64,000 nt of DNA from Glandiceps talaboti (taxonomy: Eukaryota; Hemichordata; Enteropneusta; Spengelidae): positions 16,783,484-16,847,483 of the forward strand of contig NC_135550.1 of NCBI RefSeq assembly GCF_964340395.1, in the 5' to 3' direction. The position numbers and the translations under genes were made by a program. Position 1 is the first letter of the stretch. Each line of letters begins with the position of its first letter. The notes under the pieces were generated by a model, which saw only the letters and a program-made list of their open reading frames with translations, was not told where the DNA came from and made no database searches. Of this stretch, positions 4,064-55,484 are shown piece by piece.

Positions 4064-4762
4064 GTACAAACAGAGTCACCAAAAGAAGAACCAAAACCAG
4101 TTGAGGAAAAAAAAGAAGAAGCTGTTCCTGTTCCAGATCAGGTTGAAGTTGCTGCTGAGGAGAAAGCTGAAGCACCAGCTGCAGCTGAAGAAACAGCAAA
4201 GGAAGAGCCAGCTGCTGTAGCAGATGAACCAGCAAAGGAAGAAGTGCCTGCTGCAGCAGATGAACCAGCAAAGGAAGAAGCTCCTGTTGCTGCAGATGAA
4301 CCAGCAAAGGAAGAAGCTCCTGCTGCAGTAGAAGAACCAGCAAAGGAAGAAACACCCAGTGCAGCAGTGGAACCAGCAAAGGAAGAAGCACCCGCTGCTA
4401 CAGAGGAACCAGCAAAGGAAGAAGCACCTGTAGCAGCTGAGGAACCAGCAAAGGAAGAACCTGCTGCAGCAGAGGAACCAGCAAAGGAAGAAGCACCTGC
4501 AGCAGCTGAGGAACCAGCAAAGGAAGAAGCACCTGCTGCAGCAGAGGAACCAGCAAAGGAAGAAGCACCTGTCGTAGCAGATGAACCAGTTAAGGAAGAA
4601 GCACCCGCTGCAGCAGAAGAACCAGTAAAGGAAGAAGTACCTGTTGCAGCAGATGAACCAGCAAAGGAAGAAGCACCAGCTGCAGCAGAAGAACCAGCTG
4701 CAGCAGAGGAACCAGCAAAGGAAGAAAAACCTGAAGAACCTAGTACAGAACCAGTTAAAGAG
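4064..4762 (+). CDS. Exon A of the glycogen-binding-domain gene: EEPAKEEAPAAA repeats
   Basis: Acceptor ttttag before 4064, donor AAAGAG|gtaatt after 4762; 699 nt, 233 codons, phase 0 at both ends. The unit GAACCAGCAAAGGAAGAAGC recurs about every 36-39 nt, so the exon is a coding minisatellite expected to vary in copy number. The opposite strand is also open because of the repeat; that is a shadow. Confidence 0.88.
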
Positions 4763-27292: not shown

Positions 27293-30200
27293 TGAAGTTG
27301 TTAAGTTTTGTAGAGTTGTGAAATCATGGGTAATACCACTGGTAAGAGAGAAGGTAAAGATGGTGGACCACCATTATCACCCAAGGAGTCACCAAATACA
27401 TTTGATTTTGGGTCAGCTAAAGCACAACTGATCCATGACCCAAGTAGTTTTGATGACTTTGAACTTCCACCAAGGGTAAGTTGCTATTAGTATCTGTATT
27501 GATCTCAAATATCAAGAAATTGATTGAGCAATAACCCCCCCCCCCCACCCCCCCCCCCCCCACCCACCACCACCACCACCACTCCACAGGTGGGTATACA
27601 TGAGATTTGATACAGTATACAATGTACAGCAAGAGCAATATGAATAAAGAAATTATTACAAATAATGAGATATCATGTTTTGATTTATACTGTAGTATAT
27701 AGGTGACATTTACAGTGATAAGTGACATTTAGAGCTACTACTAAACTGTAGCTATTATTATCAGTAGTCTGGATATGTAGGTCAATGATTGACATCTATC
27801 AACCTAAGCTATCTAATAGGTTACACAATATACTAGTACTATGTGATGTCCCAGTACAATGACGCTATCTTTTAATATTTCTACACACAGGATGGTCCAC
27901 ATCGACCAAGAGCCAGCACTATTTCCCAGTCGTCGTTGCAATCTAATGCATTACCAACTGTCTTTCATTATGAAGGAAGTAATAACAAGACTGTGTGCAT
28001 TTCAGGCACTTTTAATAATTGGGATAAAAAAATACCAATGGTTAAGAGGCAAGTGATTGTTTAATAGTATGGGGTGATTTATACTGTAAACGTACCTATT
28101 TTGGCACTTGACAAATTTGGTGGAATGGACAAGTCAGGTGCATTTTAATCGGCAGACACTGTAAGAGTGTACAGGGAAATTAGACATTACTTCAACCCTT
28201 GTACTAATTCAGTTGTCCAGCTGTATTGTTGACACCTTTCACCTTTAGAAATATGCATAATGTAAGTAGCAGGACATATTTCTGTGGACAAAATCCTGTT
28301 TTTTGCATATTTAGCTAAACTAAATTTAGTACCGGAATTCTAACAACTACAGTATTCTAATGAATATCAAGCAATGCATCAAAATATTATAACAAATTGA
28401 TGATATCTACATATTTTGTTTTTGTAGTCAAGGAGATTTTTCAGTGATCATAGAACTGCCTGAGGGTGACCACCAGTACAAATTCTATGTGGATGGAAAC
28501 TGGGTACACGATCACACCATGGTAAGTTAAACATCATCCTTTAATAACACTGTAAGTTTTGGAAGCCAGTCTTCACTAGCTGTAAGCTTTGTGTGTGTCA
28601 CCTCACAGGAACTGAGTCTTAAATCTACTGCAAAAAAATGCAAAATTATTTTTTTGTTTTTTCTGTGACTTTATAGTATTCCAGTTGCATAACTGGCATT
28701 GAATTTGTAGATGTTTTCATCACAAGTAAAGCAATTGTGCACTTATAAGTTACAGTAATTGAAACCACCATAAGACTGAGTCTGAAGACAACTTCCCAGG
28801 TAGATTTTACCGTCTTAACAACCTTTACAATACACTGCTATTAAATTGTAGTTTCTATTGAAGGCAACAGGTATACAAGAAATAATGAATTTCTTGAACT
28901 CGAATCCCAAATATTCGCTGACATCTTGTCAGCATTGTCAGGGGTGTACTACAAAGGACTATTGTCACCTGTCTTGTAAGAGACAATGTTGTGACTATGA
29001 CTATGAGTAGAAATTTTCATTCAACTATAAAGTATGAACCCATACATTGTGTAGTCCATGAACATTCATTCTTGTAAGAAATAACAACTTTGTTGTGATC
29101 AAACTGTCACTTATTTCTTATTTCTTTCTTTTGCGTCAGCCAACCTTGGTGAATGAACATGGCACTTACAACAATATCATTAAAGTCCAGAAATCCGATT
29201 TTGAGGTATTTGAGGCCTTAGCTATTGACTCAGTAAACAGTGGTACTAGTCCTAGAGGTGAGTGAGTTCACTGAATTACTTACTATCTAAAAAAAGATAA
29301 TGTAGTTTTAAAAAACCAAGAAAGGGCAAAAGTTGTTCTCTAAAAAAAAAAATGAACAGTTTTAAATGAATTGTTGATATGGAAGTACTTGTCAATATTT
29401 CATTGAGACTAAATTACATCTTCTAAGTAAGGTACTGGTGATTCTCGGAGACTATTATTTTTCTTTAAAATTCGGTTTAACTGACTGTTAAAATATTGTC
29501 CTTATATAAGGTATACAGAATTCTGTAGAAGGTGATTTATTTTTAGGATGGCTTATGCAAAACTTGCACGATTCATCTTGTTGTCAAAGAATTTTTTTTT
29601 AATGATCATCTTCATAATTTGAAAGTTACTAAAAACATAAAATGTATGCAACATTCATCATGAGTCATTGCATGAGTTTGAAAGTTTTATATCCATAAGA
29701 GATGATTTTTTTTTTTTTTGTAATTCTTTTTCAGTTCCACCTTCCAGTTTATCTTCAGGTGGTTATGTGTTTCAGAACTTTGGGGCTTCATTTCATTTTG
29801 TGGTTAATACTATAAGTATAACAACATAATTTTAACACATAACAAAGCATGGCCAAACAGTCTAGTCTTCTTGAATTGTGCTGTGCTGTGTTATGTTATG
29901 TTGTTATTTTCCCTTCATCCTAGATTTGTGTTTTGTTTTTTTCTTTAATCATTCTTTCATAGAAATCTTTGTGTTGTATGTGACAAACTGAGATCACACA
30001 CTTACTTGGTGGTGGTGATATTGTCTTTTGTAGGTACTGCATGCTGCATGGTCCTCACATTTCACCAAAACTGTTTTCTACTTTGTGCAGTCTAGATTTG
30101 GGAAGTTCATTTTATGTGTGGTGTGTCTTAGGATCAATTGGCTGATATTGTTGAGATAGATTTTCTAAGAACACAAACTAAGACTTGTCTTTTAGAACAA

Positions 30201-30586: not shown

Positions 30587-33500
30587 AGGTGTTTGTATCA
30601 AGGTATAGTGATATATCATAGTGGAAAGTGAGAAATGTTGTGTTTGTCTTTTCTGGCAAACCATAGCATATACTACTGGGATGTTTGTCTTAGAGTTTTA
30701 ATGTGTTACAATTATTGCTGTTGTTGTTGTTGTGACGTAAAGTGTGTTCTTTGGTGGAGACATAGCCTGTATACCTCACAATCTGTGATTTTGCATTGCT
30801 TCTCACTAACTGCTTGTAATACTATTAGTGTCAACCCATCATTGTGGTTTGAAAATTATGCATTCACACTGATTGGTTTGAAAATACATACATGCTCAAT
30901 TTGATTGGTCGCAATGGGGGAATGTAACACTATTTGACTATATTCAAATGAAGTCATTATGTAAGTGATCATTGTATACACTGTTACTCAGATGAACACT
31001 GGAGATGACAGTGACATGATTTACAAAAAGGCTATTATTATGAAAACAGGCATATTGATTACAACCAGTGGGCCATGGCTAAGTGGTACAATATTACAAG
31101 CAGTTAGAGAGTAGCAAAGCAATATCACAAATTAGATGATCATTGATGTAGACAGGCTGGTGGAGGCAGTGTTGGTTGGTACGGGCAGTGTTGTGTTGGT
31201 ACGGGCAGTGTTGTGTTGGTATGGGCAGTATTGGTTGGTACGGGCAGTATTGGTTGGTACAGGCAGTGTGTGTTGGTACAGGCAGTGTGTGTTGGTACAG
31301 GCAGTGTGTGTGTTCATACTACCTGGGGTAGACAACTGACGAAGAAGCCAATCGTATCTTGTTTTGTACAATCATGAATCTCTCTGAATACTAAGTTTAT
31401 CTCTTTTAGTTATATAGAAACAAGTTCACAATAATAGTGGTAAAAAAAGTCAAACAGTGCATAATGGTTTCAGATATATACTGTAAAGAACCTATATAAA
31501 ATTGTATGTACATCATTTACACTTTAGTGTGACCAATCTGAATTTAACAATAGAAAAAATACAAATACATAAATTAACATAAACTGAAATAAGATCTATA
31601 TTATGGTACCCTGCACCAACAAGAATGACAGTTGCCAAACTGGAATACAGGTAACAGTTAGAATTTTCCACAGTTTTAAAAAACCTCGCTGCTTTGTACT
31701 TGAAACAAACATGTTTAGCTGATGATGTGTATTTGATCCAGCAAATAGTGTAAGTATTAAGGTATAGTGAGATAAGACCTAGCTGGGTACTAAGAATTAT
31801 TTACTTACACAGATAACATTTGAGGTATTTAGGTCACTCAAGTAGGAGAAGAGTCACAGAGAATGTAAGAAAAATGGCGTCCACTAAAAATATCCCAATC
31901 TATGGCTGAAAAGATGTTATTTTTGGTCAAAAAACTGATTTTCACAAACCATTACTAGGTTGATTGGTCTGAAATTTGGTGAATGTAGGATGTAAAATAA
32001 CGGAAATGAGAACCAAGTATAGAGTGTCAAATACTTATTCTAAGAGTTGGTTGCACCCTGCTTTTCTCTAAGTTTCACACCATGTAGTATAGGTTACATG
32101 CTTTATGAACCTTTCTATTTTGCAATCTAAACCTAAATCATGGCAAATTTCACCTTTTCTTCCTTTTTCAAAATGTATATTGTTGTAAACTATATCAAGC
32201 ATAGACTGCAGTGTAAAGTTGTTGTTCTCCTTCCTGTAACTGTGCAGCAAACAGTCAAAAAATGTCAACAACTTCCCGCACACCAGTGTGTTCAAATATT
32301 GAAAAAAAAGCTATATGTACTATAGTATAATCGAAATTTGATTGAAGAGTTTTTACAGTAGAAAGGTGAGATTGGTGTTGTTGAATGGTTGACTTTCATG
32401 ATCTCTGTGTGACACCAGGATAGTATGTTTGGTGCCATCTGTAAATAATTTCAAATGAATTGTAAACATACTGGCCAAATTTTGTATTCCTAATTGCTAC
32501 AAAACTGTTTCCAAGAACCAAGATTGACATTTTGTTGTCCTCTAAAGCAAAGTTTAAAGTTAATTGAAGAAATTTACAATTCTCAATAGTGGTGGGCTTT
32601 TTTTTGGTACATCCAGGCATGCTCAGATGTGGGTCACAAAGAGGTCATGAAAAATGGTGTTTTCTCAGAGTCGACTTAGAAAATAATATGTATATTTTTT
32701 GAAATTTCTTTTTCAGTTCCACATTCAAGCGTGTCAGGTGGTTACATGTTTTGATTGTTTTCATTTCTGTGTGTCTACTCTTACATATTGAGTATCATAA
32801 ACTTGTAAGGTGTACATAATTGGTGATGGCATTGATTATCCTGCTTCACTGAGTACTTTGTTAGCTGTAATATATATACACGTAAATATTGATATGGCAC
32901 ACCCTAGCCAAGTAAATGTTGATATTGAACACCCTAGTCAAGTATATGTAGATATGGAACACCCTAACCAAGTAAATAGTGATATGGAACACCCTAGCCA
33001 AGTAAATATTAATATGGAACACCCTAGCCAAGTAAATATTCAAATGGAATGCCCTAGCCCAGTACATGTAGATATGGGACACCCTAGCCAAATAAATATA
33101 GACATGAGACACCCTAGTTGAATAAATATAGATGTGGGACACCCCAGCCTAGTAAATGTGCATACGGGACACCTAGCCAAGTAAATGTAGATACTAGTAT
33201 GAGACACTCTAGCCTAGTAAATGTAGATATGGGATACCCTAGCCTAGTAAATGTGGATATGGGATACCCTAGCCTAGTAAATGTGGATATGGGATACCCT
33301 AGCCTAGTAAATGTAGATATGGGACACTCTAGCATAGTTAATGTAGATATGGGACACCCTAGCCTAGTAAATGTAGATATGGGATACCCTAGCCTAGTAA
33401 ATGTGGATATGGGATACCCTAGCCTAGTAAATGTAGATATGGGATACCCTAGCCTAGTAAATGTAGATATGGGACACCCTAGCCTAGTAAATGTAGATAT

Positions 33501-36500
33501 GGGATACCCTAGCCTAGTAAATGTGGATATGGGATACCCTAGCCTAGTAAATGTGGATATGGGATACCCTAGCCTAGTAAATGTAGATATGGGACACTCT
33601 AGCATAGTTAATGTGGATATGGGACACCCTAGCCTAATAAATGTAGATATGGGACACCCTAGCCAAGTAAATGTAGATATGGGACACCCTAGCCCAGTAA
33701 ATGCGAATATGGGATACTCTAGCCAAGTAAGTGTAGACACAAAAGAAGTATTACATGAAAGGAAACATTCTTGTTGTAAATTATTTCAAATTATGGTAGT
33801 TTTTGAAGGGGAGGTAGTCAGTGAACATTTCCTCTCTACATGTAATCCCTTCTACATGTGTTACATGATATATTTTGTCTGAGGTATAACATTTTCATAA
33901 AGTTATGACATTCCACACTAAGTAGTTAATAATATGATTTTGCTGTGAAAATAATCTTTTTAAGATATGGTATAATAAATATATGTATGTAGTGTACACT
34001 TAGATTCATCATGAACCAATATAGTTAATATAGTATACTGTGTGTAGTTACGCATACCACCTTGTAGAAGTAATGAATCACAGTTTAGAATTCTTGTTAA
34101 CTAGAACTATGCAAACACTGTAAAAAAAACACAACTGTTTTCTCCATCACTGTAATGTCAAATGTGTGTGCAATATGCACTTGATGTCTATGCTTATTCA
34201 GAATGAAGATGCTGACTATAGTTCTGCTGATGTTGCCTGTCTACTTTGCTGTGCATGATGGACAGTTTTTACATTTTCCATAGTTGCTGCATTTGATAAA
34301 GAGAGAGAGAGAGAGAGAGGGAGGGAGAGAGTGTGTGTGTTCCAGATTTGATGGTGATGATATAGACCTGCTATCAATTAGGCAGTGTATGTATTATGAT
34401 GATGATGGTAGTGCCCACTTGTCATTTAGAGCTAAGTCAAATTCAAAGTGCATGGATTAGAGTGTGCACACCATGTGCGTGTGGTTGTTGGTCACTCAAC
34501 TAACATTCAATCCTTCTGTCTCTTATATACCACTTCTCCCAGATATATCAGGTTCTCCACCTGGTGAATACAACCAAGACATACCACCTAGGAGACTGCA
34601 TGAAAAGACTTCAGGACCACCTATCTTACCACCACATTTATTACAGGTTATCTTGAATAAAGATATTGCACTACAGGTATGTTGATAATGATATGGGGGG
34701 GGGGGGAAGGGGGGGGCTAGTAGTTTGATATAATAATATGTGTTTAGCATGATGTTATTTCTAATGTCAGTGTTACAATCATAGTGATGTATAAGTTGAA
34801 GAGTTTTCACTGGAGGTAATAAACACTTTGGAGTCATGAATATTCATTGCTCACCTGTTGCATAAACATTTTGTTGACAAGCAGTGTTGCCCATCGCAAA
34901 GATCCAAAAAATGAGGCACAAGTTCAACTTGATGTTTCTCTGAAATCACATGTAATGTAGGTGATGTAAATCCATGAAATGAGTCTCCAAAAACCAAAAG
35001 TTAATGAAAATGCCTCTATTTCCAGGAGTGGGTTTCCCCTTTAAACATTGTACATGCAGAAATCACGAAAACCCTGCAATACATATTATTCAAGTCAACT
35101 TCACATAACTTTTAAGTGAGCTAAGAATAAAAAACAAACTAAAAAAAAGTAACTTTGATTAATCGATTTCATACCTGAAACAGGAACTGAGGATGTCAGA
35201 AACCCAATTAATGGATTTACTTTCGAAAGATAATCCAAACTTCCAAAAAAACAACAAAAAAACGATTCATGATTGTGTTTGACTTTTACAGTGTGAGCCT
35301 TCCTTATTACCAGAACCCAATCACGTTATGTTAAATCATCTGTATGCATTGTCAATCAAGGTAAGAACTCAACACATATATATATAATCTCTGCATCTTT
35401 ATTCACGCATAGAGTCTTGCTTCAGTTCACAATGACACCCAGTGTTATGAATATACTGAGAACAAGTAAATACTGATGACACCATGTCAATCAATATATT
35501 AAAAAAACAAAGAAATATAGATTACTCCTAGTCAGTGTTATTAATAAACTGAGAACAAATGAACTCGGACATATTGATCATATCCTGATTTACAAGATGA
35601 ATGAAATAACAACCTATATAGAGGATCAGTGTAATATCGTAGATTTGAACCAGTCATAGATCAGAAAATTTTGATGATATTTTTACTGTGTTCACTTCAT
35701 TTTGCAAATGTTATCTTAGCTTATTAACCTGCTGTATCTCTTACCACAAACAGTTATTAACTGTACCTAATAGTAATAATGCAACAGGTCACGTTTTTCT
35801 CAAAATATTGTTTTATTGAAAAAAAAGACACTGTAATTTTGTTGTGGCGAGTGCTACTTGTGTTTGCTGTATAGTGTTTTACTGGTAACTGTGATGGTGT
35901 TAAAACGAGTGACTTTTGTGTTGTGGTTGTTAATTGTTTTATTTGTATGGTTACAATACATATCCATTTTGATGTAGTCATCAGTGTTACATCAGCAACC
36001 ATTTCCTATTCTCAAAATTTCATAACTTTTGCAACGGAAAATAGCTGCATGTGTCCAGATTTTTGTAACATTTAACTTCATATCATAGCAACATGTTAAC
36101 ACATCATTACTAGTTATATTGTCGTATCTAAAAGCTGTAATAATGCTTTTTTTTCAAAATCTATTGTTGTCATTACTTTTCAAAGTAGACATATTTACAT
36201 GGAAAGCACGAGGTAAACCTATGATGCTGGACTATCATGTCCTGAATCATACCTGTATTTACCATCATCGTTGCCAAAAAGATGACCATTATCAAACTGG
36301 AACATTGTCAACCATTCTGTCAACTAACACACTGTGTATTTTAATACATGCTTCATGCACATATACACACACACACACATGCGCGTGTGCACGTCCACAC
36401 ACATACATGTACACATGCACACACACATCTGAAAAGTCTAACTGTGGCTCAGACATTTTTAAAAAATCATTAGCACAGCATGCTGCACTGCAAACTCCTT

Positions 36501-39500
36501 CAACTGCGCTGCAGTAAATGGCACTGCCCTGATCACCACTTCCTTATTGGATGCTGCATGGATATGAAGATTGTAAGTCAGTGCAAGCCTGATATTGTGT
36601 TCTGTTTCCTCCCTCAACACTTTTCATCCCAACAGGATGGAGTCATGGCGTTAAGCGCTACACATCGTTTCAAGAAGAAATTTGTCACCACATTATTCTA
36701 CAAGCCCATTTAGAGCTAAAAGACTAAGGGTAAATGGTTTATGGCAGCATGATATCCATGTTTGGTTTGTCTTGCATTGGTTTTTTTTTTGTTGCTTTTT
36801 GTTCAGATATTTTTTTTTGGTTGTTGTTTTGTTTGCATTTTTCGGAAACAAATGTAGTGATTTTGATATTTCAGGATGGAGTTATGGCTCTAAGCATAAT
36901 TCAACGATACAAGAAGAAATATGTGACCACGCTGCTGTATAGACCTACTTGAGTGAATTAAAGACAGATATTAAATGTCACTGCATCAAGGAATTAATAC
37001 TTTACAGGATCAGTTGTATATTTGCACACATTTGTCTGCTGACATATTGTAAGAATTATTGCGAAACAGTGACCATGGGTGCTTTTTTCACAAGTACTAG
37101 AGATATTGTCTAATATAGTTTAGCTAACACTTGTATAGAGTGAACAGGGAATGAGCACAGAAGAATTACAAACATACATAATCAAATCCCTGGAATTTCT
37201 TTTCAGAAATTGCCAAAAATTGTCAAGTAGTAAGTTTAGACAGATTATGTAGTAAGCTTGTTTGCAATTGTCATTAAAGTTCCATAGTTTCTGTACTATT
37301 GAGGCTCAAAAAAACAGAGACATTCATGTTTGCTTAGAGTGTGTAGAAGTATTTTTTTTTTTATATCAGATGTACTGTAAGTAAACTTTAATATGCTGCA
37401 AAATATAGTCTTGAGATTTACACACACAGAAGTAGTGCTTTGAAAGACAGAGGTACAGGTTGACTTTGTAGCAGAGAGTAGTACTTTGAAAGATTGAGAT
37501 AGGTTGATGTTGTAGACTGTAATACTTTGCTTGAAAGATTGAGATAGGTTGGCTTTGTTATAGACTGTAGTACTTTGAAAGATAGATAAAAATAGAAACG
37601 TACAGAAGTATCATTTACAATAAACTAGTCTTTAATACACAAGAAAACTTCAGTTTAAATGAATATTAATATTTGAAATGTGTCAAAACCTTCAAGAATC
37701 ACAGTACTGGTATTAGAAAATTTACCTCAAGTGTAGAACCATTTATTAGTACTGTTTTGTACATCATGCAATAGGTGGATAATAAGAAAATTACCGTCCA
37801 CAGTAATAGAATAAGAAGAAAGATATAGAATATTGTTAGTTATTGCATAATGGTCATGAATATGAATTGTGTTTGGCCATTTTAAATTTCTGTGCACACG
37901 TTATTTACGCTTGTATGTGTGCTTGTTTTGATGTGACAACTCACGTTGTATTAATTTTATTTAATTTTATTGTACATTTTAACAATAAGTGTAGAAGTGT
38001 ATTTATAAAGTAGATGGTAGCCGAGTGACGTTTATCTGTATTCAATATTTTAAGGTTTTTCTTTTGTTTCAGATGTTGTGACCTTGTCTTAGTGTGTAGT
38101 AGTTGTTTGATTTTTATTTCAGAATGACTGACTTTGTAATCAGTGCATAGTAGCTCTGTAGAATTGTACAGTTTTTTTTTTTAGCACAATTGAACTGAGG
38201 TTCAGTAGCACTCTAGGCATGGTGAAATGTCTGTGTATGCGTATGTCAAAAAGTGATTTCTTGGAAACTACTGGGTGAATAGGTTTGAACTTTGGTTGGG
38301 GTGTTTCTAGAGGTGACAATCTGCAGACGTTGTACAAGACATTGACACAACTCTCCCTAGCAACTATGACCACACCCTTAGCAACAACCAAATGCCGGAA
38401 TATTTTGCAAAGACAACATTATTGGGTAGGCAAATACATAGACATCCAAAATATGAACAGATATATGCCTAGCAACAAGAACCTGTCCATAGCAACAGTA
38501 AAGTGATGTTGCAAAGATAACAAGACCGATAGATAGGCAAGTAGATAAACATCCAAAACCTGAAAAACATATATGTTGAGCAACAAGACCACACCCATAG
38601 CAACTGGGATAGGATGGGTATGAATGAACTTGCCAAGACAGAATAATGTCCCACCAATCAAACCCTGACCAGCCATTTCCCAAAGTCTGCAGTTGTGCTA
38701 CAATGCCATTGGTGCTATTTTGTTTAGTTGTGGTAGAATCACAAATGAGTAGTTTCTTTTAGTGCGTGTTTTGGCAACTTGATGTTAGTGAAGAATTCTT
38801 TTCGTAGAAAACAAAGTGATTTTTGGGGTAATAAAATGTAAGCACAAGACTTCCTGTGCTGCTGATGTGAAAACTGTGTGTCTTTCCTGCTGGCTTCCTA
38901 TGAATGTAGATCATGCTTTGCATCATTCATCATTTCATCTTGTCTTCTTCTTTGTGCAAACCTCAAGATACTGGTAGAATTGTAGAACGTAGTAACCACC
39001 ATGTACACAATGTAACTATGCTAGTTTTCTTAGAGTATTTAATCATGGTCATTTGTGCCATTTTGTTCAGTTAGGAAAAAATTTAAAAAAAGGAAAATTG
39101 AAAATGAGTGAAATTAATTAGAGAAATCAAAGCTGCACTAGCTGCAACTGGTCTATCTTTTGAAACAGTGTTTATTAGATATATAATTGCTTCTCATTAT
39201 TATACACCATTGAGATGTATTGAATCATGTATGAGAAGACTTGTGTGTGTAGCTGTACACATAACATGATAAGAAAACGTAACGAATTTGTTTTTTTTAT
39301 GGTATGGACCATAAAATCAGTGTCATCATCGACCAGACAGTGTTAAATTTGCAGACAAAACATATGAATCACTCACGAGATCGCGAGACACGCCTTGAAA
39401 GAATACTTGGCGCTGTGACTGCAAGTGTTTGACCTAGCGTGGGCTTGCCTTCGATATTGAGTATTTATTGAGCACCACCATATATAGGTATCAAGGAAAG

Positions 39501-40639
39501 TCAAACTAGAATGGTGACGGATTCAAAACCAAGCTTTCGTTCAAGATTTAAACGTTATCACTCTACCTATGGATAAAATCAACCACTAATTATACAGGTA
39601 CAATACCCTTTTATAAGTAACTGAAACTTTTCTCGTTTTTTTCTCACCTGCTGTAACAATACAAAGAATGATTACTTATTGAAAACCTCAATTCAGGTTG
39701 ACTAACACAATCAACATCTGATCAAGATTAACTATTTGAAAACTAGCATACATGACATTGTAATTGTTAGAAGAAGTAATAGACCTGACTAGTTATAGTG
39801 CCCTCTAGAGGTGCAGCTTGTCCATGATATATGAAGGGTTGTTCTCACAGATCAAATATACACTCAAATTTCACTTGGGTACTAATAATTACTAACGACA
39901 GACAATAGCCTACTGAGGGGAATATTACATATCTAACTGTACCACACAACACCACATCACACCACACCACATATGAGAATGGTGTTTTGACAGTGATGGG
40001 TGGAAGTGTTTGTGTTGTCATTTAGTATGAGATCTGTGTTGTCAAATTACTAATGTTGCATGAAGGTGAGAGAGTACTCGGGGTTTGAATTTAGCAGTGG
40101 TCTTGAGTCCACTGACCACTGGAATTTCGTTTTGGACCATCCAGTGAAAATTGTAGTTGTGCATATTGACCTCTTGTTTTCAAAGCATTACAAAGTTATG
40201 TTGTTTTGGAAAAGTATGAAGTATTGTTGGTTTATAATCACAATGTGATCATTATTGACTGACTGTGTACATAAAGGTTTATTAGATTCTGATGACTGGA
40301 AAACCAGCTGCAGGAAATTATGAGTTTAACATTGATAGGTGACTAAAAATATTGACTACCGACATCTTACTGTGGCGTGTCTACATCATGATCTGTGATT
40401 TTTTGTTTCACTTTTCACTAACCACTTGTACTACTATCAGTGTAAAGCCACATCCCTAATAGCTGATATATCAGAATGTTTGACGATATGTACAGAATAT
40501 ATGCAAATGATATTGATGTTAAAGCCTGTGTTAATAAGGATAGTATAAGTGTACACTTACAAAATGACTTCATTTGAATATAATCAGGTATAGCTGTCGT
40601 GTTTGTGTCTTTTTTGCTTTTGTAAATAATTGTCAAAAT

Positions 40640-40726
<87 letters not shown>

Positions 40727-41921
40727 TTGGTAGTACTGGAACTCTTTCTTGGTTGTAACTCGGAGTTTCATGCATAGTGCGATCATCAGACAACTCAGTT
40801 ATCTGATGATCGCACTATGCATGAATCTCCGAGTTACAACCAAGAAAGAGTTCCAGTACTACCAAAATTATTACGCTCTGCCACTGCGGTATAGAGCACT
40901 GTCTTAGCAGATTGATACTTACCGAGTTATATATATATATATATATATATATATAATCAAGTAGTGTAATCCCTCCCCATTGCAACTAATCCGTTAAATA
41001 ACAAATTTTCAAATCAAGTTTGAAAATAATGGCTTGACACTGATAGTATTACAAGCAGTTAGTAGGAAGTGAAGCAAAAATAACAGATTGCAATGTAATG
41101 AGGCCATGCTGTGGAGAAATCTAAAATTGATTATCAATATGGACAACTTATAAATGAAAAAAAAATTTCAAACCCTGATACTGTGTGTGTGTTTGTATGT
41201 TTTGTCATATCTAGTTATCAAAGTCTCTTAAATCAAAATATATCCATTGAAGGAAATAAGTATGAAGTAATTGCAAATAATTTTCTTAACTGAATAATTA
41301 AAAAGGCAGTCGACAATTAGTATTGCAATTTTACAGTTTAAAGCTACCATTGCTGCAACTGGAAAGTTTTCTGAAACCGTTTCTTAGATAGAATGATTTA
41401 TTCATAATGTTGTACACCCAGAACAGTGTTGAATCACATGGAGTAAACATATTTGTGTAGCTGTACATATAATCTAATCAAAGCAAGTTTTTGGTCTACA
41501 CCTAAAAATCAGTGCAATCATGATTTGAACCGTTAATGTACTAATTATGGACAAAATTGACCTCAAATTAACATATACAATGTCTATTTATTCATATTTA
41601 CATAATTTTCAGTAAATATTTTGTTGATTTTTGATTTAAAAAAAATAATACACCAGTTACAGCTAGTGCAGCTTTAATGAAAACAAAAATTGGAAATTTT
41701 TGCTTCCAAAGAGCTCAGTTTTATGAGAACTCTTTCTGAGAGAGCTCTATTTTGTGAGAACTTTCTGAAAGAGCTCTGTTTTAGTGAGAATTCTTCTGAA
41801 ACATTCCTCTTTTTGTGTGATTATTTTCCAGGACGGAGTCATGGTACTAAGTTCCACTCATCGGATCAGAGGCAAGAAATATGTGACCACAGTATTCTAT
41901 AAACCTATTTCAGAAATCTGA
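27293..41921 (+). CDS. PRKAB: AMPK beta regulatory subunit, with tandem microexons and three alternative last exons
   Basis: Beta subunit of AMP-activated protein kinase: scaffold joining the catalytic alpha and nucleotide-sensing gamma subunits and binding glycogen. Coding exons: 27326-27475, 27891-28048, 28428-28521, 29140-29257, optional 29735-29758, 30471-30509 and 32717-32737, then 34543-34676, 35292-35360 and one of 36636-36713, 36875-36952 or 41832-41921. All phases agree. Without microexons the protein is about 267-271 residues, near the family size. It starts MGNTTGKREG (an N-myristoylation site), then the glycogen-binding domain (TVFHYEGSNNKTV, GTFNNW, HQYKFYVDGNW, TYNNIIKV), FEVFEALAIDS, the Ser/Pro linker, GPPILPPHLLQVILNKD and the C-terminal strands. 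Sugar-contact Trp (FNNW, GNW) and Lys (QYKF) are kept; the Leu of vertebrate SQLGT is His. Lineage copy number of the gene is unknown, so beta-1 versus beta-2 is not assigned. Confidence 0.96.
27326..27475 (+). CDS. PRKAB: PRKAB coding exon 1 (myristoylated N terminus)
   Basis: ATG in good context (aaatcATGGG); the exon probably begins at 27293 after the acceptor ttattgtag, giving a 33-nt leader. 50 codons, ends CCAAGG|gtaagt, phase 0. Gly2-Asn3-Thr4 fits the N-myristoyl-transferase signal shared by AMPK beta proteins. Confidence 0.95.
27476..27890 (+). other. Intron with poly-C tract
   Basis: A 45-base run of C with few A (27533-27582), followed by CCACCACC repeats, starts about 55 bases after the donor. 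Nothing else recognised. Confidence 0.9.
27891..28048 (+). CDS. PRKAB: PRKAB exon 2 (start of glycogen-binding domain; GC donor)
   Basis: 158 nt, phase 0 to phase 2. Encodes DGPHRPRASTIS, then LPTVFHYEGSNNKTVCISG and TFNNWDKKIPMVK. The donor reads AAGAG|GCAAGT, a GC-AG intron with an otherwise perfect consensus. The only frame-correct alternative to the homologous split codon would lose the family motif, so the GC donor is well supported. Confidence 0.93.
28428..28521 (+). CDS. PRKAB: PRKAB exon 3 (central glycogen-binding domain)
   Basis: 94 nt, acceptor tttttgtag, donor ACCATG|gtaagt. Encodes QGDFSVIIELPEGDHQYKF and YVDGNWVHDHTM. The split first codon is a Ser aligned with Ser108 of vertebrate beta-1. 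Confidence 0.96.
28522..29139 (+). other. Intron, AT-rich
   Basis: No exon seen. The block around 28930-29060 (AGTATGAACCCA, CCATGAACATTCATTCT) resembles 57600-57700, suggesting a dispersed repeat. Confidence 0.6.
29140..29257 (+). CDS. PRKAB: PRKAB exon 4 (end of glycogen-binding domain and start of linker)
   Basis: 118 nt, phase 0 to phase 1. Encodes PTLVNEHGTYNNIIKVQKSD, then FEVFEALAIDSVNSGTSPR. The donor AGAG|gtgagt leaves one base that any of the three microexons, or the exon at 34543, can complete. Confidence 0.95.
29735..29758 (+). CDS. PRKAB: PRKAB microexon 5a (24 nt, linker)
   Basis: Acceptor attctttttcag, donor CTTCAG|gtggttatgt. Phase 1-1, adds VPPSSLSS plus a regenerated Gly. 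Closely related to 5b and 5c in exon end and downstream intron, so it arose by tandem duplication. The length, a multiple of three, makes it an in-frame cassette. Confidence 0.75.
29759..30470 (+). other. Intron between microexons 5a and 5b
   Basis: T-rich with repeated TGTCTGTCTGT phrases at 30260-30370. No further exon recognised. Confidence 0.7.
30471..30509 (+). CDS. PRKAB: PRKAB microexon 5b (39 nt, linker)
   Basis: Acceptor aactttctttcag, donor TCGTCAG|gtggttatgt. Phase 1-1, encodes ASPPSTLSTLSSS. It contains an internal AGTACATTG duplication that makes it longer than its relatives. Eight of its 13 residues are Ser or Thr. Confidence 0.78.
30781..31132. mobile_element. Miniature inverted-repeat element, family X, copy 1 (352 bp)
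   Basis: The left end ATCTGTGATTTTGCATTGCT, with CACTAACTGCTTGTAATA, is repeated inverted at the right end (TATTACAAGCAGTTAGAGAG, CAAAGCAATATCACAAAT). The arms are about 50 bp. A second member lies at 40391-41088 in the same gene. Confidence 0.8.
31150..31315. repeat. Minisatellite GGTA(C/T)GGGCAGT(G/A)TTG, unit about 18-24 bp
   Basis: Eight units of TTGGTACGGGCAGTGTTGTG or ACAGGCAGTGTGTGTTGGT. Confidence 0.93.
32717..32737 (+). CDS. PRKAB: PRKAB microexon 5c (21 nt, linker)
   Basis: Acceptor tttctttttcag, donor GTGTCAG|gtggttacat. Phase 1-1, encodes VPHSSVS plus a regenerated Gly. The acceptor tract and the first bases (TTCCAC) match 5a. Confidence 0.72.
32738..34542 (+). other. Intron dominated by a 30-bp minisatellite
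   Basis: The array spans 32880-33745. A GA-rich tract lies at 34303-34335. Otherwise AT-rich with no exon. Confidence 0.8.
32880..33745. repeat. 30-bp minisatellite, about 28 units, open on both strands
   Basis: Unit GATATGGGATACCCTAGCCT plus AGTAAATGTG. Because 30 is divisible by three, the array reads as NVDMGYPSLV repeats on the plus strand and as STFTRLGYPI repeats on the minus strand, over more than 200 codons. The left third is more diverged (GAACACCCTAGCCAAGTAAA), and the middle units are nearly identical, so expansion was recent there. It lies inside a PRKAB intron, and I do not treat the frames as genes. Confidence 0.95.
34543..34676 (+). CDS. PRKAB: PRKAB exon 6 (C-terminal domain start)
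   Basis: 134 nt, phase 1 to phase 0. Encodes ISGSPPGEYNQDIPPRRLHE, then KTSGPPILPPHLLQVILNKD and IALQ. PPILPPHLLQVILN is the hallmark of the AMPK beta C-terminal domain. Confidence 0.97.
34677..35291 (+). other. Intron with poly-G tract
   Basis: A G-rich run lies at 34696-34717, shortly after the donor. No exon is seen. Confidence 0.8.
35292..35360 (+). CDS. PRKAB: PRKAB exon 7
   Basis: 69 nt, phase 0-0, encoding CEPSLLPEPNHVMLNHLYAL and SIK. Nearly identical to the vertebrate sequence. It is the common donor exon for all three terminal exons (donor AATCAAG|gtaaga). Confidence 0.97.
35361..36635 (+). other. Intron before the terminal exon cluster
   Basis: Carries a CA-rich tract at 36362-36430. 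No exon recognised. Confidence 0.75.
36636..36713 (+). CDS. PRKAB: PRKAB alternative last exon 8a
   Basis: Acceptor atcccaacag, 25 codons plus TAG. Encodes DGVMALSATHRFKKKFVTT and LFYKPI, the version closest to vertebrates. These are the final beta strands that pack against the gamma subunit and complete the alpha/gamma-binding fold. No AATAAA or ATTAAA occurs before exon 8b, so an 8a message probably carries 8b in its 3' UTR. Confidence 0.95.
   Translation, partial: DGVMALSATHRFKKKFVTTLFYKPI
36875..36952 (+). CDS. PRKAB: PRKAB alternative last exon 8b
   Basis: Acceptor tgatatttcag, 25 codons plus TGA, starting 161 bases after the end of 8a. Encodes DGVMALSIIQRYKKKYVTT and LLYRPT. ATH of the family becomes IIQ, and the final residue is Thr rather than Ile. 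Many differences from 8a are silent (GTC/GTT, GCG/GCT, TTA/CTA, ACA/ACG), which indicates selection on the protein. Confidence 0.92.
   Translation, partial: DGVMALSIIQRYKKKYVTTLLYRPT
38330..38720. repeat. 'CCTAGCAACNAAGACCA' repeat family, copy 3
   Basis: Phrases CCCTAGCAACTATGACCAC, GCCTAGCAACAAGAACC, CCATAGCAACAG and AGATAACAAGACCGATAG recur in about 85-base steps, as at 2400 and 7895. Confidence 0.75.
39129..39320. repeat. Partial copy of the element at 41338-41677
   Basis: Begins AAGCTGCACTAGCTGCAACTGG and then shares GTGTAGCTGTACA and AAATCAGTGNNATCAT blocks in the same order as the downstream copy. The right inverted end is not seen. Confidence 0.6.
40650..40723. repeat. (TA)n microsatellite
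   Basis: About 36 perfect TA units directly abutting the hairpin. Confidence 0.97.
40725..40867. mobile_element. Near-perfect hairpin (66-bp arms, 11-bp loop)
   Basis: The left arm 40725-40790 and right arm 40802-40867 are reverse complements with one mismatch. The flanking 40868-40927 (ACGCTCTGCCACTGCGGTAT, then GATACTTACCGAG) is followed by TA repeats again. The unit resembles TA-microsatellite-associated miniature elements of marine invertebrates. The near identity of the arms implies a recent origin. Confidence 0.9.
41338..41677. mobile_element. Short inverted-repeat element, about 340 bp
   Basis: The left end TTAAAGCTACCATTGCTGCA, followed by ACTGG, is matched inverted by the right end (CCAGTTACAGCTAGTGCAGC then TTTAA). 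No coding capacity. Confidence 0.65.
41832..41921 (+). CDS. PRKAB: PRKAB alternative last exon 8c
   Basis: Acceptor attattttccag, 29 codons plus TGA, 4.9 kb after exon 8b. Encodes DGVMVLSSTHRIRGKKYVTT and VFYKPISEI. Relative to 8a it has one extra residue in the basic turn (IRGKK instead of FKKK) and a three-residue extension, SEI. Confidence 0.93.
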   Translation, partial: DGVMVLSSTHRIRGKKYVTTVFYKPISEI

Positions 41922-44635
41922 GTTAATACAACACCGATGTGATGAGAAATGCACATTGAGAGGTCAACAACACAAATAGAAATGTTGTGTTCATTTATAG
42001 TAAATGTACAGGGTACCAGTGGCTTGTTTTTGTGATATATGATTGATTTTGATTACATTTATAGACAGTACTGTTATAAATATATGTATTTAGATTAGAA
42101 AACACCTTCCAAGTTTGCTATTTTTAATTTGAATGGAAATGAACTCACTGGTGCAACTGAACAAGAGTCTGTTACATGTTGCACAAACATAAAGTAGTTC
42201 AAGAATAAATGTTCATCAGTGGAATTTGCTTCCAAAATCTATTTGACCTAGCGAGTAGAAGTGTTCATTTATACTATAAAATAGTTATTATTACTTCGGG
42301 AAACTATAGGGTCAGTTACTAGTAATTACAACTCTCAATAAATACAATCTACCGATATATATATATATATAAGTTTACAATGAATGTATAAATTAGTCTG
42401 TAAGATACAATGCCATGCTATCAGCAGTGACTCAAAAAACAGGGGGTTGACCGATGTGCAAGGCAGTCCTGACGCAGTGTACCTTACAGACTATGTAGAA
42501 ATATGAATGGGAAAGACAGTTTTTCCTCTATGGACTGTTCTTTTTGTGGTTTGTAAATCTCAGAATTTTCCAGTGCTATGTGAATAGATAACTTTCAAGT
42601 GTAATCTTTAAGTAATACTCCTACAGTAGATTTTCATTGCTGTCTGATAATTTTGTCTTGACGACTTTCACTTTTACAAAAAACTGTATGGACAAACAGT
42701 ATATAGAGCCTGTCATCACCGGTAACCATGATTTATGAGCTGTGCAGAACATTAGATATTAAAGAAAAAATTCAACTGGGAAAATAAAAATTTGAAAAAA
42801 AAGGTTCAGCAGAATTAGTACTGAACATACAGTAAATGAATGATATTTGATGTTCCATACCACTGACCAGGACAATCTGGAATTCCAGTAGAATACCTGG
42901 TATTTCATTTCCTTAAAACTACTGTACAATACAAGACTGCATTGAAACTGATGTATTCTACAGTTACAAGCAGTATAAATCAATGATTGCAACTGATTTT
43001 ATTTTAGTTTTCTTTTAAAGTGCAGAATGTTGTTGTTGTATATTAAAATGGATTGTTCTGCATGTACTTTGCGATTATATTAAATAAAATTGGTTAAAAT
43101 ATGGAAATGTTGACTTGACTTTCCTTGTAAGGAGAATGAATGTATGATTGTGGGCGAGTGCAATAGAAAACCAAATTGCTGTCAAGTTTGATGACATGAG
43201 CACTCACTAAGTTAAGTTATACACAGATGTTGGAATGTCAGTGCTAGCTCAGTCAATTTGGCACGAACATTATCATTTTATGTATGGACATTCTTACCTT
43301 TGTCAATATTTTGTGCATGTAACAACAGGTCAAGTTATGCATGTGAAAACAAAAGTCAAAACTACACATTAGAATGCTTTCAAAAGATGACATTTATTTG
43401 TTGAGTACTGCTGCATATACATGTATATCTATCTATTTATTCAATCAGTCACTTCAGTACTGTTTAGGTTGATAACTAACACAGAAGTATTCACAGCTTT
43501 TGATATTGAGTTTGTCAATTAATTAATCACATGTACATAGACATACCCCATCCCTGTGGTGTCTGTCTGATAGTGAGTGGGGGGGGGGGGGCTATTACAA
43601 TGGTACGTCTTTCTGTCCATCCATAATTTCTTTGTCCTTTAGTTTCTTTCAAATGTAGAATTAATAGAATGATCAGACACAAATCCTTCACAAGTGATCG
43701 TGAATGCTGCTTTCCTATTATACTATGCATAATTTAATTACATTTACTAAAAATGGTGATCTTACATTAATGGATACTGTCCAAACTTGTTATGTGCTTC
43801 ATGATATCAATACCAATCATTTTACATTTCAAAAATGCATTATCTATATCACAACAGACCATTTCAGATTTCAGATACACATTTAATACATCATTTTTTA
43901 ACAGGCAATGCATGCAATTACAAGAAAGAAAAACTTCACATCATTCTGGCAGGAATTCAGTTTACATGTGGTGTTTCAATACATGATATACATGTGGATA
44001 TATACATGTGGTATTTCACTGCATGATATACAGGTGTTTCAATGCATGATATACAAGTGGAGTTTCAATGCATGATATACAAGTGTTAGCAAAAAGAACT
44101 ACAGGAAATATTTGGTTTGAACGGTATGACAAAGTCTATCATTTATAGCATCATCTATACATACAGAAGTATGTGAAATATTTGGTTTGAACGGTATGAC
44201 AACCAAGTCTACTATGCATAATGTAGAAAGTTGAAAATATAAATATGATAGCTATTCTAAAATGGAAAAAGTTTTGACAAGACTGGCCAGCACTTGTTAG
44301 TTTTAAACAAAATAGCAAGTAAAATATACAGATACACCAAGTTTGAATTCTGTTTGTACGTACATGTACCTCTTACACCCTTGTACTTTCATAAACTCTT
44401 GTCTCAATGTAAAAGTCAAAATGAAAAACTGAAATTAGATACTGCAGTCATGAATGACAATGTTCACCAGCAATGAAATTCTTCAATTACGAATAATTCA
44501 CTTTATTCAAATACAGAAAGTAATTGTAGAATTATTAAAACTATCAACAGAAAGAATCCAAAACAAATTTGAGTATTAAATGCAGAAGACACAACACACA
44601 AAGTCATGCTGTTTGACATATGGTAAAATCATGTT
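41922..44635. other. 3' UTR of the 8c form and intergenic DNA before PRDX5
   Basis: AATAAA occurs near 42206, 42336 and 43084; the last is a plausible gene end. From 43090 to 44635 lies the gap between convergent genes, with short TGCATGATATACA repeats at 43975-44090 and no gene. Confidence 0.65.
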
Positions 44636-49606: not shown

Positions 49607-50518
49607 TAAAAAGAACCTTTCTTTGCCCACTTCCTTTTCTGTTTTCTATAACAACGCGTCTCTTTCTTTCAGCGAAGTTGAAAAATCACTCGGACTTATC
49701 ATTGACTCTACACTCTCATGGACTTCACATTGTCAACATTTGCATGCAAAAGTATCTTCTAATCTTGCAGCTCTTCGTCACATTGCTAAATACTTAGATG
49801 TATCTACTAAAAAACTTTTCTACTTTAGTTATATTCAGCCCTTTTTTGATACTTGTTGCAACATATGGTCTCATGCAAGTAAAGGTGATATTGACAAATT
49901 ATATAAACTTCAGAAGCGTGCAATCCGGCTAATTTTAAATATTTCTACCATTGAAATGCAATCCAAAGGGATTTCCAGTATTGACCTTTTTAAACGACTT
50001 CATATTTTACCACTTGAAAAGAGATTTCTATTTAATAAGTACATTCTGATTTTCAAATGTCTACATAACCTGGCTCCTATGTACCTCTCTGACCTCCTTC
50101 ATAAAAGGAGTTCAAGTAACCAAATGGGCACCCGTTCCTGCACCAACAATCTTTTGTATTTACCATTTCCAAATTGTCGTATTTTTACTCAGTCATTTAG
50201 TTTTGAAAGCTCCAAACTTTGGAACATTTTACCTACTCACCTTATCAGTATTACGAATTTAACTTGTTTCAAAAAATCTTTAAATTCATACCTATTTGAA
50301 TCTCTTTAATCCTTTTACATTGTCTGTGGTCATACAATTTTATCTCTTTTACGTTTCATACTTTTTAATGTTTTTCAATTTTTATGTGTGTTACCTTGTT
50401 TTGTTTTTGTTGTTGTATTGTATACATTTGCTTTAGGGCCCCTGGGAAGATTAGGCTGGACCTAACAGGGTCACCCTTTTTCTTTTTGAAATAAAAGTCG
50501 TTATTATTATATTATTAC
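49607..50518 (+). mobile_element. 5'-truncated non-LTR retrotransposon (LINE; CR1/L2/Jockey-like)
   Basis: An open frame ending at 50309 (about 228 codons) has the features that follow the reverse-transcriptase core in these LINEs: KSLGLIIDSTLSWTSHCQHL, YIQPFFDTCCNIWSHAS, LYKLQKRAIRLILN, KCLHNLAPMYLSDLL and a tail with SFESSKLWNILPTHL and FKKSLNSYLFESL. The 3' UTR carries GGGCCCCTGGGAAGATTAGG and GGGTCACCCTTTT, then AATAAAA and a (TTA)n tail, typical of the group. The endonuclease and most of the RT are absent. The intact frame suggests a fairly recent insertion. Confidence 0.87.
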
Positions 50519-52154: not shown

Positions 52155-54442
52155 AGCTCCGCTGTTTTTTTTTTTAATTTAATTTTTTATTTTGGTGACA
52201 TGTAGAAGTGGTTCAGGTCTTCACTATGCAGTTTTGTTTTAGCGATGCAATAAAGTGGTTAGTGGTTTCATATGATGTCTCACTATAAAACACATTTTAC
52301 ACAGAAGTTGGTAATGTATTGTACTTTTATACCATAGTCACCATTTTATAACAAAAATCTACTGTTATGAAAAATTGCACAAAATCTCAGAAAAAAATGA
52401 CTGGGAAATGCACACAAGAAAAAGAAAAAAAGAGGATTTTGAGGTTGGCTATAAATAATTCCAGTGTCTTACAGCTGTAACCCTTGAAAATTTTAATGAT
52501 GAATGAAATAAACTAGGGATCTAAAATAATTTTGAGGCAATTTGAATTTCAATTTTCTAACAAATTTACAAAGTCAACAACATTCAACTTGTACTAGTTG
52601 TGGTAGATATATATAGGGAAGAAATGTATTAATCGCCATCTTAGTTTCCGTACGGCGACAATCTCAAGTTAAGTACCCGGAAGAGAGTCATTCTCAGCCA
52701 TACGTTACAGTGGTAACACTCGTTCATGTTCGGTTACCTTTCACAAAGAAAACACAACGAAATGGTTGAAATGATCTTTTTTTTTAATTTCTTTTCATCA
52801 CAACAACAAAATCTGCGTGATTGATCAAAAGTGTTGTAAACTAAACCAGAAAGAATTATCGGACTGGCTAAACTTCCCGATGAACTGGAGTAAGGTCCTA
52901 CTACTTCCAAGTAAGCCTCGATAGTACTATAGTACGTGAGAAAATCGTCTCAAACTAGCGATACAACTTTCAAAATATAACTTGACATGTCTTCATTTGT
53001 TAGAGTTATACAATTCAAGACGGGTTTTCACTCGAAAACAACAATTCTGTGAATAATGACACTCTGAACGCAGCGATTTCTCGGACGATGTTACCACTGT
53101 AACGTATGGCTGACAACGACTTGCTTCCGGGTTAGTCCCTCATGCATACGGGTGGATTGTCGGCGATTAATACATACATCGTCTGATATTTTAATTCACA
53201 GTATTTCTTGTGACCGGCGCCTGTCAGCAGACTCTGCCATTTTTTTCATCATTCCATTGTATTTAAACCTTGTACTTGACATTTCGCAATATTTATAATT
53301 CTCAACAAAATACCTCAACATGCCTCACTTCGCTCGTACTCAAAGCAGCCCCGCGCGGTATGATCACTGACACTGATGACATGATGAGAGAGAACCTTTT
53401 CGGATTTACATGTAAAACGGGGAAAGATACGCAAAACATAATGCAAAGTCTAAAGCCAAATTAAAGTTGTAATTATTTTAATTATTTTTACTTGCCAAAT
53501 ATTTGCATTTTGGAAAGGCAAGACACGTTCATGTCGTTTAACTTTACATGTGAACTGTCGGCCATAACTTCAACCGCATGTCTGGCATGCCCTTCCTTAC
53601 GCAAGTTGTCTGAATTCTGGTTCACTGTCATTCCAAATTGCACGACAATATAGAATTAACCACAAGTTACATGTTATCTGAAAACATCACACTTTTATAG
53701 TGGGTCTGAAGTGTGATTTTAGTGAGTACCAAGAACGTCCTGTGTTGATACTCAAGATGCTTGCTGTGGAAAATCGCTCGGTCAAATGAGGTCACCTTCA
53801 GCTTCTGGTCGAATCAGGATAGAGTATGCAAATGAGGATGTTGCGGACTGATTTGAAGTTTACAACCCTGTTTCGAACAAACGCTTGTCATTTGGGCGCC
53901 CAATGCGTAGAATTATGACTATAGCACATATTACATTGCTTGTTTGACGTCAATAGTGTCTTTTGAAAAGTGGCAGTTTACTTAAAGTCTCGTCGACTGA
54001 TTTCCAATATGGCGTCGGTCATTATGCTCATTAACATATTCATTTTTTTTTCAAATTACAAAAAAAAAATCATAAAAAATAAAAATGAGGATGTGCTGAC
54101 TTGAAATTAACAAATCTGAGTAAGCTACCCCCTGCGCATCAACACGCCAGATATCAAAGCAATCTAATAAGAGGTTTTCAAGGAGTTGATGAAAATGACA
54201 TTTTATGAAAAAAAATCATAAAAAATTGAAAATGGCACAGATCAACTTGGCATGAACAAATCTGAATAGCCTCCCCCCAGGGAACATGCACACCAAATAT
54301 CGAAGAATTCCGACTGTCACTTCCGGAGTAGATAGTAAAAATATAAAAGTTTGACGGACACCTATGATTCACTCTACTCTCTATACCTCAATACCCACCT
54401 ATACCTAAAGCTACGCTTTCAGCTTTCGCTGACAGCGGAGCT
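52155..54442. mobile_element. Putative 2.3 kb inverted-repeat element with nested MITE
   Basis: AGCTCCGCTGT at 52155-52165 is matched inverted by ACAGCGGAGCT at 54432-54442, and an A/T-rich run adjoins both ends. The right part has two tandem 125-base copies (54055-54190, 54190-54320) starting AAAAATCATAAAAAAT. The pairing rests on 11 bases, so the outer limits are uncertain. No transposase was found. Confidence 0.45.
52624..53176. mobile_element. MITE with long (~95 bp) terminal inverted repeats
   Basis: The left end ATGTATTAATCGCC and the right end GGCGATTAATACAT are perfect inverts. The arms extend inward with TCAGCCATACGTTACAGTGG on the left and CCACTGTAACGTATGGCTGA on the right. About 550 bp; no coding capacity. 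Confidence 0.85.
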
Positions 54443-54485
54443 AAAAAAAATGATCCCGTGTAAACCCTATGGCTCCACTAATAAC

Positions 54486-54892
54486 ACTATTGCCAGAACC
54501 AGAACCTAGGCTAGGATAGCATCCCAAACCAGAACCTAGGCTAGGATAGCATCCCAAACCAGAACCTAGGCTAGGATAGCATCCAGAATGAGAACCTAGG
54601 CTAGGATAGCATCCAGAACCAGATCCTAGGCTAGGATAGCATCCCAAACCAGAACCTAGGCTAGGATAGCATCCAGAACCAGAACCTAGGCTAGGATAGC
54701 ATCCAGAACCAGAACCTAGGTTAGGATAGCATCCAGAACCAGATCCTAGGCTAGGATAGCATCCAGAACCAGAACCTAGGCTAGGATAGCATCCAGAACC
54801 AGAACCTAGGCTAGGATAGCATCCAGAACCAGATCCTAGGCTAGGATAGCATCCAGAACCAGAACCTAGGCTAGGATAGCATCCAGAACATA
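54486..54892. repeat. 30-bp minisatellite, about 13 units
   Basis: Unit GAACCTAGGCTAGGATAGCA plus TCCAGAACCA. Each unit contains the palindrome CCTAGG. The array is open on the minus strand as GCYPSLGSGS repeats because the unit is divisible by three; no evidence of a gene. Confidence 0.95.
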
Positions 54893-55484
54893 AATTGAGT
54901 TTACACATTTTATGATTCCTGCATTGATTATTAAAAAGTATTTGTATTCTAATTACTGAAGAATACATAGCCATCACTTGGTAGCGACACACATCTCAAA
55001 CTTGGTAGTTTAATAGGCATATATATATATAAATACATATTAAATAATTTGATGATCCACTGGATCATCTCAGACATTCAGTATGATTGCTAGATTGCTA
55101 GCCAACAACAAGTCTCTAGGCTACAGTAAAGCTTACATTCAGTATGGCAACATGATATATATTTATCATAATGTAACCCGTAGGCATAGTGGCCAGATTT
55201 GCCTACCAATTTCACTTTTTATAAATATAAATATTATAGCATCTACTTGGCAATCATACATAAAGAGTTACTGTTAGGATTGCTGTCCTGCTCAGCTTAG
55301 AAGTCATGAAAAGTAAAATCTGTGTCAGTGTGATATCCTGGAGAACATGGCCTGGTCAGATTGTTTGAGGAAGCAGTGTACACCAAAATGACACATCAAG
55401 AATCAGGTAAGCTTAGCTGTGTAATTATGGGATGTCTTGCCTAGCAGCCTGGAGACTTGGCCATCTGGCTTGAAAACATTGTTC
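54893..55484. other. Unremarkable AT-rich spacer
   Basis: Nothing recognised between the two minisatellites. Confidence 0.6.

Follow-up and report, generated by a model that had tools for sequence, protein, structure and literature searches.

The gene for the AMPK beta subunit of the acorn worm Glandiceps talaboti probably possesses three homologous and mutually exclusive C-terminal exons, of which two (8a and 8b) form one terminal unit and the third (8c) is a separate last exon, giving three versions of the joint between the beta and gamma subunits. The gene lies in a 64,000-nucleotide stretch of contig NC_135550.1 (hereafter the window), to whose numbering the positions below refer, and all exons and candidate signals described are on its forward strand. 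In animals, few pieces of AMPK are as uniform as the C-terminal 25 residues of its beta subunit, where 7 of 25 positions are invariant in the 302 tails that we compared, and three natural, conserved tails in a single gene would represent a ready-made mutant series for the effect of the beta-gamma joint on nucleotide sensing. The gene also illustrates a way of obtaining AMPK isoforms that needs no gene duplication. On a more tentative reading, splicing would do in acorn worms what subunit paralogues do in vertebrates. We infer that the three exons are used in a mutually exclusive manner in vivo, that 8b is among those used, and that the choice among them affects enzyme activity.

Gene model and terminal exons

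Judged by its sequence, the gene is that of the AMPK beta subunit of G. talaboti (Hemichordata, Enteropneusta, Spengelidae), and its product is predicted to bind the alpha and gamma subunits and to be subject to AMP regulation. When exon 1 (27326-27475), exon 2 (27891-28048), exon 3 (28428-28521), exon 4 (29140-29257), a 21-nt microexon (32717-32737), exon 6 (34543-34676) and exon 7 (35292-35360) are spliced in silico to exon 8c (41832-41921), the translation agrees at 277 of 277 residues with the top match of our protein search, which carries the NCBI name '5'-AMP-activated protein kinase subunit beta-1-like isoform X2 [Glandiceps talaboti]' (P0001). Exon 1, which ends at a GTAAGT donor, supplies residues 1-50 of P0001 and opens with MGNTTGKREGK, whose Gly2 fits the myristoylation-type start of AMPK beta; myristoylation itself is a prediction. 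The first part of the glycogen-binding module is encoded by exon 2, a further part by exon 3, and its end by exon 4, where the linker to the C-terminal domain starts. The exact splice to P0001 confirms the GC donor (AAGAG/GCAAGT) of the intron at 28049-28427. Within the linker, the microexon contributes VPHSSVS to P0001; this insert is absent from the second-best match, isoform X3 of Ptychodera flava (P0002; family Ptychoderidae), and Saccoglossus has a related insert of eight residues. The C-terminal interaction domain starts in exon 6, and exon 7 encodes CEPSLLPEPNHVMLNHLYALSIK and ends at the donor common to the three tails (AAG/GTAAGA).

The gene resembles other animal AMPK beta genes (PRKAB1, PRKAB2 and invertebrate orthologues, with PF16561 plus PF04739) in its Gly2 start and in both domains, which exceed their Pfam cut-offs. 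The glycogen-binding module (PF16561) of P0001 reaches 104.6 bits against a cut-off of 26.8, and the C-terminal interaction domain (PF04739) scores 92.5 bits in P0001 and 101.9 bits in P0002 against a cut-off of 24.3. Genome stretches carrying 8a and 8b are each above the PF04739 cut-off by themselves.

Three exons would compete for the donor at 35360. Exon 8a (36636-36713) encodes DGVMALSATHRFKKKFVTTLFYKPI and a TAG stop, 8b (36875-36952) encodes DGVMALSIIQRYKKKYVTTLLYRPT and a TGA stop, and 8c (41832-41921) encodes DGVMVLSSTHRIRGKKYVTTVFYKPISEI and a TGA stop, with a hairpin turn one residue longer and an SEI extension. The initial annotation had placed the three at these positions, each with an acceptor, a phase 0 DGVM start, the family pattern and a stop of its own, and every element was found as described, including the AG ahead of each exon. 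With a human beta1 probe, tblastn against the window recovers all three at levels well beyond chance (E values of 1.9e-9 for 8a, 5.6e-8 for 8b and 2.8e-7 for 8c), and a search of the 64 kb with the exons themselves found no additional copy better than E 0.25. The claim that each acceptor is good is borne out by a rough home-made matrix, on which they rank among all AGs in the top 0.6% for 8a, 2.2% for 8c and 4.0% for 8b, the weakest acceptor, within the range of 0.1% to 8.7% that the same matrix gives for five other acceptors of the gene, a set that leaves aside the microexon acceptor.

The exons are homologous, tandem, of equal phase and equivalent to the same domain segment, as is characteristic of mutually exclusive homologous terminal exons. 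All six combinations of microexon (in or out) and tail remain in frame from the donor at 35360 with one terminal stop each. Because 8a, 8b and 8c each carry their own stop, at most one of them would be translatable as the tail of any given transcript.

Tail sequences, constraint and origin

At least two of the three tails are already present in automatic annotation, so the sequences themselves are not new to databases. Exon 8c is the tail of P0001 and was seen in Glandiceps only, and 8a matches the P0002 tail in 25 of 25 residues and was seen in Ptychodera only; overall, P0001 and P0002 are 81% identical, in contrast to this perfectly shared tail. Both are pipeline names and sequences, such that the support they lend is that of a protein record and not of RNA. 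The sole Saccoglossus record found (S. kowalevskii, P0003) ends at the end of exon 7 and holds no information on a tail exon. The searches gave the best 120 of 1224, 120 of 913 and 120 of 823 matches, chosen by likeness to the query, and no 8b tail was found among these proteins, which are representatives of 90%-identity clusters, so that an 8b isoform could be hidden. The cluster of P0001 comprises six sequences, a number that is suggestive of two microexon states times three tails, and suggestive only.

The many silent differences among the exons had been taken as a sign of protein-level selection, and a codon comparison and a simulation agree on this, with 8b-8c as the weakest pair. Over the three pairs, the NG86 method gives pN of 0.10-0.21 versus pS of 0.55-0.82. 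For 8a-8b, pS is 0.82 and pN is 0.155, with dS saturated; dS is 2.4 and dN 0.11 for 8a-8c, and 0.98 and 0.25, respectively, for 8b-8c. Exons 8a and 8b differ at 23 positions, yet they specify the same residue at 17 of 25. A simple neutral simulation of 5000 runs attained the protein identity seen between the exons in a fraction of 0.0004 (8a-8b), 0.0012 (8a-8c) and 0.038 (8b-8c) of runs. These comparisons support protein-level constraint on three homologous, in-frame, stop-bearing C-terminal exons, of which the 8b-8c pair appears only modestly non-neutral.

None of the three tails is canonical. Of 307 proteins fetched for comparison, three hemichordate sequences were set aside and two were dropped (P0022, one residue short, and P0230, which did not match the pattern), and the remaining 302 tails fall into 46 distinct types that are closely similar and near-canonical. 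The Glandiceps gene differs from these in having three alternative, non-canonical versions of its last 25-29 residues. In human beta1 numbering, 8a has three residues found in 0 of 302 tails (V250A, Y261F and L266F), whereas 8b has two such residues (V250A and A253I) together with T254I, which occurs in one of the 302. Exon 8c has Y257I and L266F, again in 0 of 302, in addition to one inserted residue and the SEI ending. All seven positions that are invariant in 302 of 302 tails (S252, R256, K260, V262, T263, Y267 and P269) are kept in 8a, 8b and 8c. The novelty of L266F and the invariance of S252 are valid for the 302 only, because in the dropped sequence P0230 position 266 is F and position 252 is G. 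In AlphaFold models of P0001 and P0002, the exon segment forms a two-stranded hairpin (in P0001, strands 252-260 and 263-271, at low confidence), and the extra glycine of 8c sits in the turn, where confidence is likewise low. Values of pLDDT are about 50-67 for the hairpin and about 43-67 for the C-terminal domain, too weak for claims about interfaces; low values in the hairpin are unsurprising for a domain folding against its partners.

In the 120-nt flanks of the exons, pairwise likeness is no greater than that of shuffled sequence, and the duplications are therefore old. Tails from echinoderms and lancelets among the matches listed (P0014, P0024, P0043, P0055, P0063, P0033, P0054 and P0108) are near-canonical. 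A hemichordate origin of the variants is therefore most likely, and 8a most likely arose before Glandiceps and Ptychodera split. We set aside a recent duplication by way of a mobile element, as the flanks are no more alike than shuffles and the inverted repeats in the 8b-8c interval do not contain the exons. These repeats include a near-perfect palindrome at 40721-40871, with 75-nt arms that are 96% complementary and 1 nt apart, which has a foldback or MITE-type look and is nested in 51-nt inverted arms at 40400-40450 and 41030-41080. Another pair (39126-39161 and 41643-41678) consists of inverted 36-nt arms with 86% complementarity, separated by 2.5 kb; it ends some 150 nt short of 8c. The repeats look like mobile elements, and one pair encloses the AATAAA at 40637. 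A search of the whole window against Rfam gave no match.

Choice among tails and the beta-gamma joint

The layout of the 3' end suggests two levels of choice. There is no AATAAA or ATTAAA in the 161 nt from the 8a stop to the 8b acceptor, which points to a choice of acceptor within one terminal unit. The first AATAAA after 8b (37619-37624) is a candidate poly(A) signal that 8a and 8b transcripts would share, followed downstream by AATAAA at 38830 and 40637, with ATTAAA at 36957, 36970 and 37273; for 8c, the candidate signal is the AATAAA at 42204-42209, the next being at 42337. The initial annotation had described three tandem last exons. This description holds for 8c as a separate last exon, but 8a is not clearly independent, with neither motif ahead of 8b. 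On the simplest reading, 8a and 8b would be rival acceptors in one terminal unit, and transcripts with the 8a tail would either retain 8b as part of the 3'UTR or splice it out. A weak donor-like GT (AGG/GTAAAT, 36730-36731) that lies 16 nt past the 8a stop might serve a 3'UTR intron of this kind.

In the mechanism that we propose, the donor at 35360 would join one of three acceptors. The decision between 8a and 8b would be made between two acceptors 239 nt apart, most likely within one shared terminal unit with one poly(A) site, whereas the choice of 8c would skip that unit in favour of a last exon 5 kb downstream and would link splicing to the choice of poly(A) site. In every case, the only part altered would be the C-terminal hairpin of 25-29 residues, the equivalent of human beta1 246-270. 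The resulting AMPK complexes would have one gamma and three kinds of beta-gamma joint, which most likely differ in their grip on gamma and in how they relay the nucleotide state.

In a review that cites Iseli and others (2005), beta1 residues 186-270 are reported to hold the trimer together, and residues 246-270 to bind gamma1, gamma2 and gamma3, to be sufficient to bind gamma, and not to bind alpha (PMC8535671); the beta-gamma joint has been approached via truncated constructs. Every exon 8 variant replaces exactly the 25-residue segment equivalent to 246-270. The segment had been said to complete an alpha/gamma-binding fold, of which the gamma part agrees with the reported binding and the alpha part does not (PMC8535671). 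In another review (PMC6274893), the beta C-terminal domain is described as sandwiched between alpha and gamma, and H235 of beta2 touches the activation loop. The equivalent of H235 (numbering of the 272-residue chain) falls in constant exon 7 and the exons 8 correspond to 246-270, and hence a swap of tails would be expected to change the gamma joint while sparing the activation-loop contact. A tail switch might alter nucleotide sensing.

At 34657-34676, each of the three hemichordate proteins has Ile-Ala as the equivalent of beta1 Thr219-Gly220. This pair occurs in 3 of 282 matched proteins, hemichordates only (25 of the 307 had no match here and were left out of the count), and other residues are also common at these positions. 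Thr219-Gly220 of beta1 are reported to contact the alpha hook (PMC3905731).

Given that the exchanged piece is the gamma-binding one, the tails could conceivably choose between gamma subunits, and such subunit choice had been put forward in the initial annotation. The 590-Mb genome argues against it. All PF04739 matches (at least three) and all matches to P0001 (at least eight) are in this gene, and no other beta gene ending in a canonical tail was found in the 590 Mb, these counts being lower bounds. A human gamma1 probe gave at least five matches, which define one locus on contig C5 (23.166-23.185 Mb), and the gamma stretch 29-57 is matched once in the 40 kb around it. Because one gamma locus was found, a choice among gamma genes is highly improbable, we set it aside, and the tuning of a single joint is favoured. 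The exons might otherwise exert their main effect on RNA, by coupling alternative 3'UTRs (8a/8b versus 8c) to the level or place of expression, with protein differences that are nearly neutral. Exon 8c does have its own downstream region with AATAAA motifs, 5 kb from 8b. However, two acorn worm families share the 8a tail at 25 of 25 residues, and yet this tail is off-canonical at positions that hardly vary elsewhere, and this makes an effect mainly on RNA distinctly unlikely.

The standing of 8b and the ends of 8a and 8b deserve separate consideration. Only 8a and 8c might be functional, with 8b an old duplicate losing its use or read just as 3'UTR of 8a transcripts. The lack of its tail among the proteins listed, its acceptor, its rare residues at 250, 253 and 254, and the weak b-c comparison all lean this way, although 8b is open through 25 of 25 codons, has every one of the seven invariant residues and an acceptor that ranks among the gene's others, and retains a likeness to 8a that very few neutral runs reach. 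An 8b isoform would, moreover, be hidden inside the six-member cluster of P0001. We therefore consider the loss of 8b unlikely. It is also quite unlikely that 8a and 8b are stop-bearing cassette exons that splice on to 8b or 8c, with the sole poly(A) site, and thus a common 3' end, after 8c. The donor-like GT at 36730 scores 5.46 bits (top 4.5% of GTs) versus 9.6-12.3 bits for five constitutive donors, no GT above 3.7 bits is found within about 100 nt after 8b, and several AATAAA/ATTAAA motifs follow 8b. What speaks for cassettes is the absence of both motifs between 8a and 8b, as well as a donor-like site near enough to the 8a stop to escape nonsense-mediated decay under the usual 50-nt rule.

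If the gene does carry three mutually exclusive C-terminal exons, as we believe, acorn worms could have put a near-invariant beta-gamma joint under splicing control, with complexes that differ in nucleotide sensitivity by tissue or stage. We offer this extension tentatively, as somewhat less probable than its opposite. The same tentative standing applies to the idea that the three hairpins differ in grip or geometry through phenylalanine in place of other aromatic residues in 8a, a remodelled first strand in 8b, and a longer turn plus tail extension in 8c.

Related systems and neighbouring sequences

Other genes, too, are known to have homologous alternative terminal exons, and tropomyosin has a C-terminal exon 9 set. 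Like the gene described here, tropomyosin swaps homologous coding exons within one gene in a mutually exclusive manner, but it encodes a muscle filament protein and is regulated by tissue (PMC4465641). The same source describes homologous alternative 3' exons of CAPZB (F-actin capping protein beta) that change the C terminus only; CAPZB has two such exons whose products are placed differently in heart cells (PMC4465641), whereas here there are three, in an energy-sensing kinase, and they are known from gene sequence. Tandem duplicated, mutually exclusive terminal exons are also described in another paper (PMC9013439) for the Drosophila pip terminal exon clusters and the PGRP-LC 3' variable regions, the latter reported to use competing RNA structures; these exon or exon-cluster units are larger than the AMPK beta tail exons. 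Among the matches listed in open-access titles and abstracts, no published AMPK beta with homologous alternative terminal exons and no paper on AMPK in hemichordates were found, and as an AMPK feature such exons were found unreported.

Several other features were noted in the window. A 228-aa open frame at 49623-50309 gave no Pfam match at E 0.001, and by eye it resembles the terminal part of a non-LTR reverse transcriptase. Open frames at 33114-33882 and 54441-54992 encode short tandem peptide repeats on repeat DNA and are probably minisatellites rather than genes. Upstream, at 4100-8791, long Glu/Pro/Ala-rich repeats of the PAKEEA type lead to a second, half glycogen-binding module, which reaches 27.1 bits with the AMPK1_CBM model (cut-off 26.8) and is continued by a match to the second half at 8687-8761. 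From its sequence, this region is probably a separate gene that lies outside P0001.
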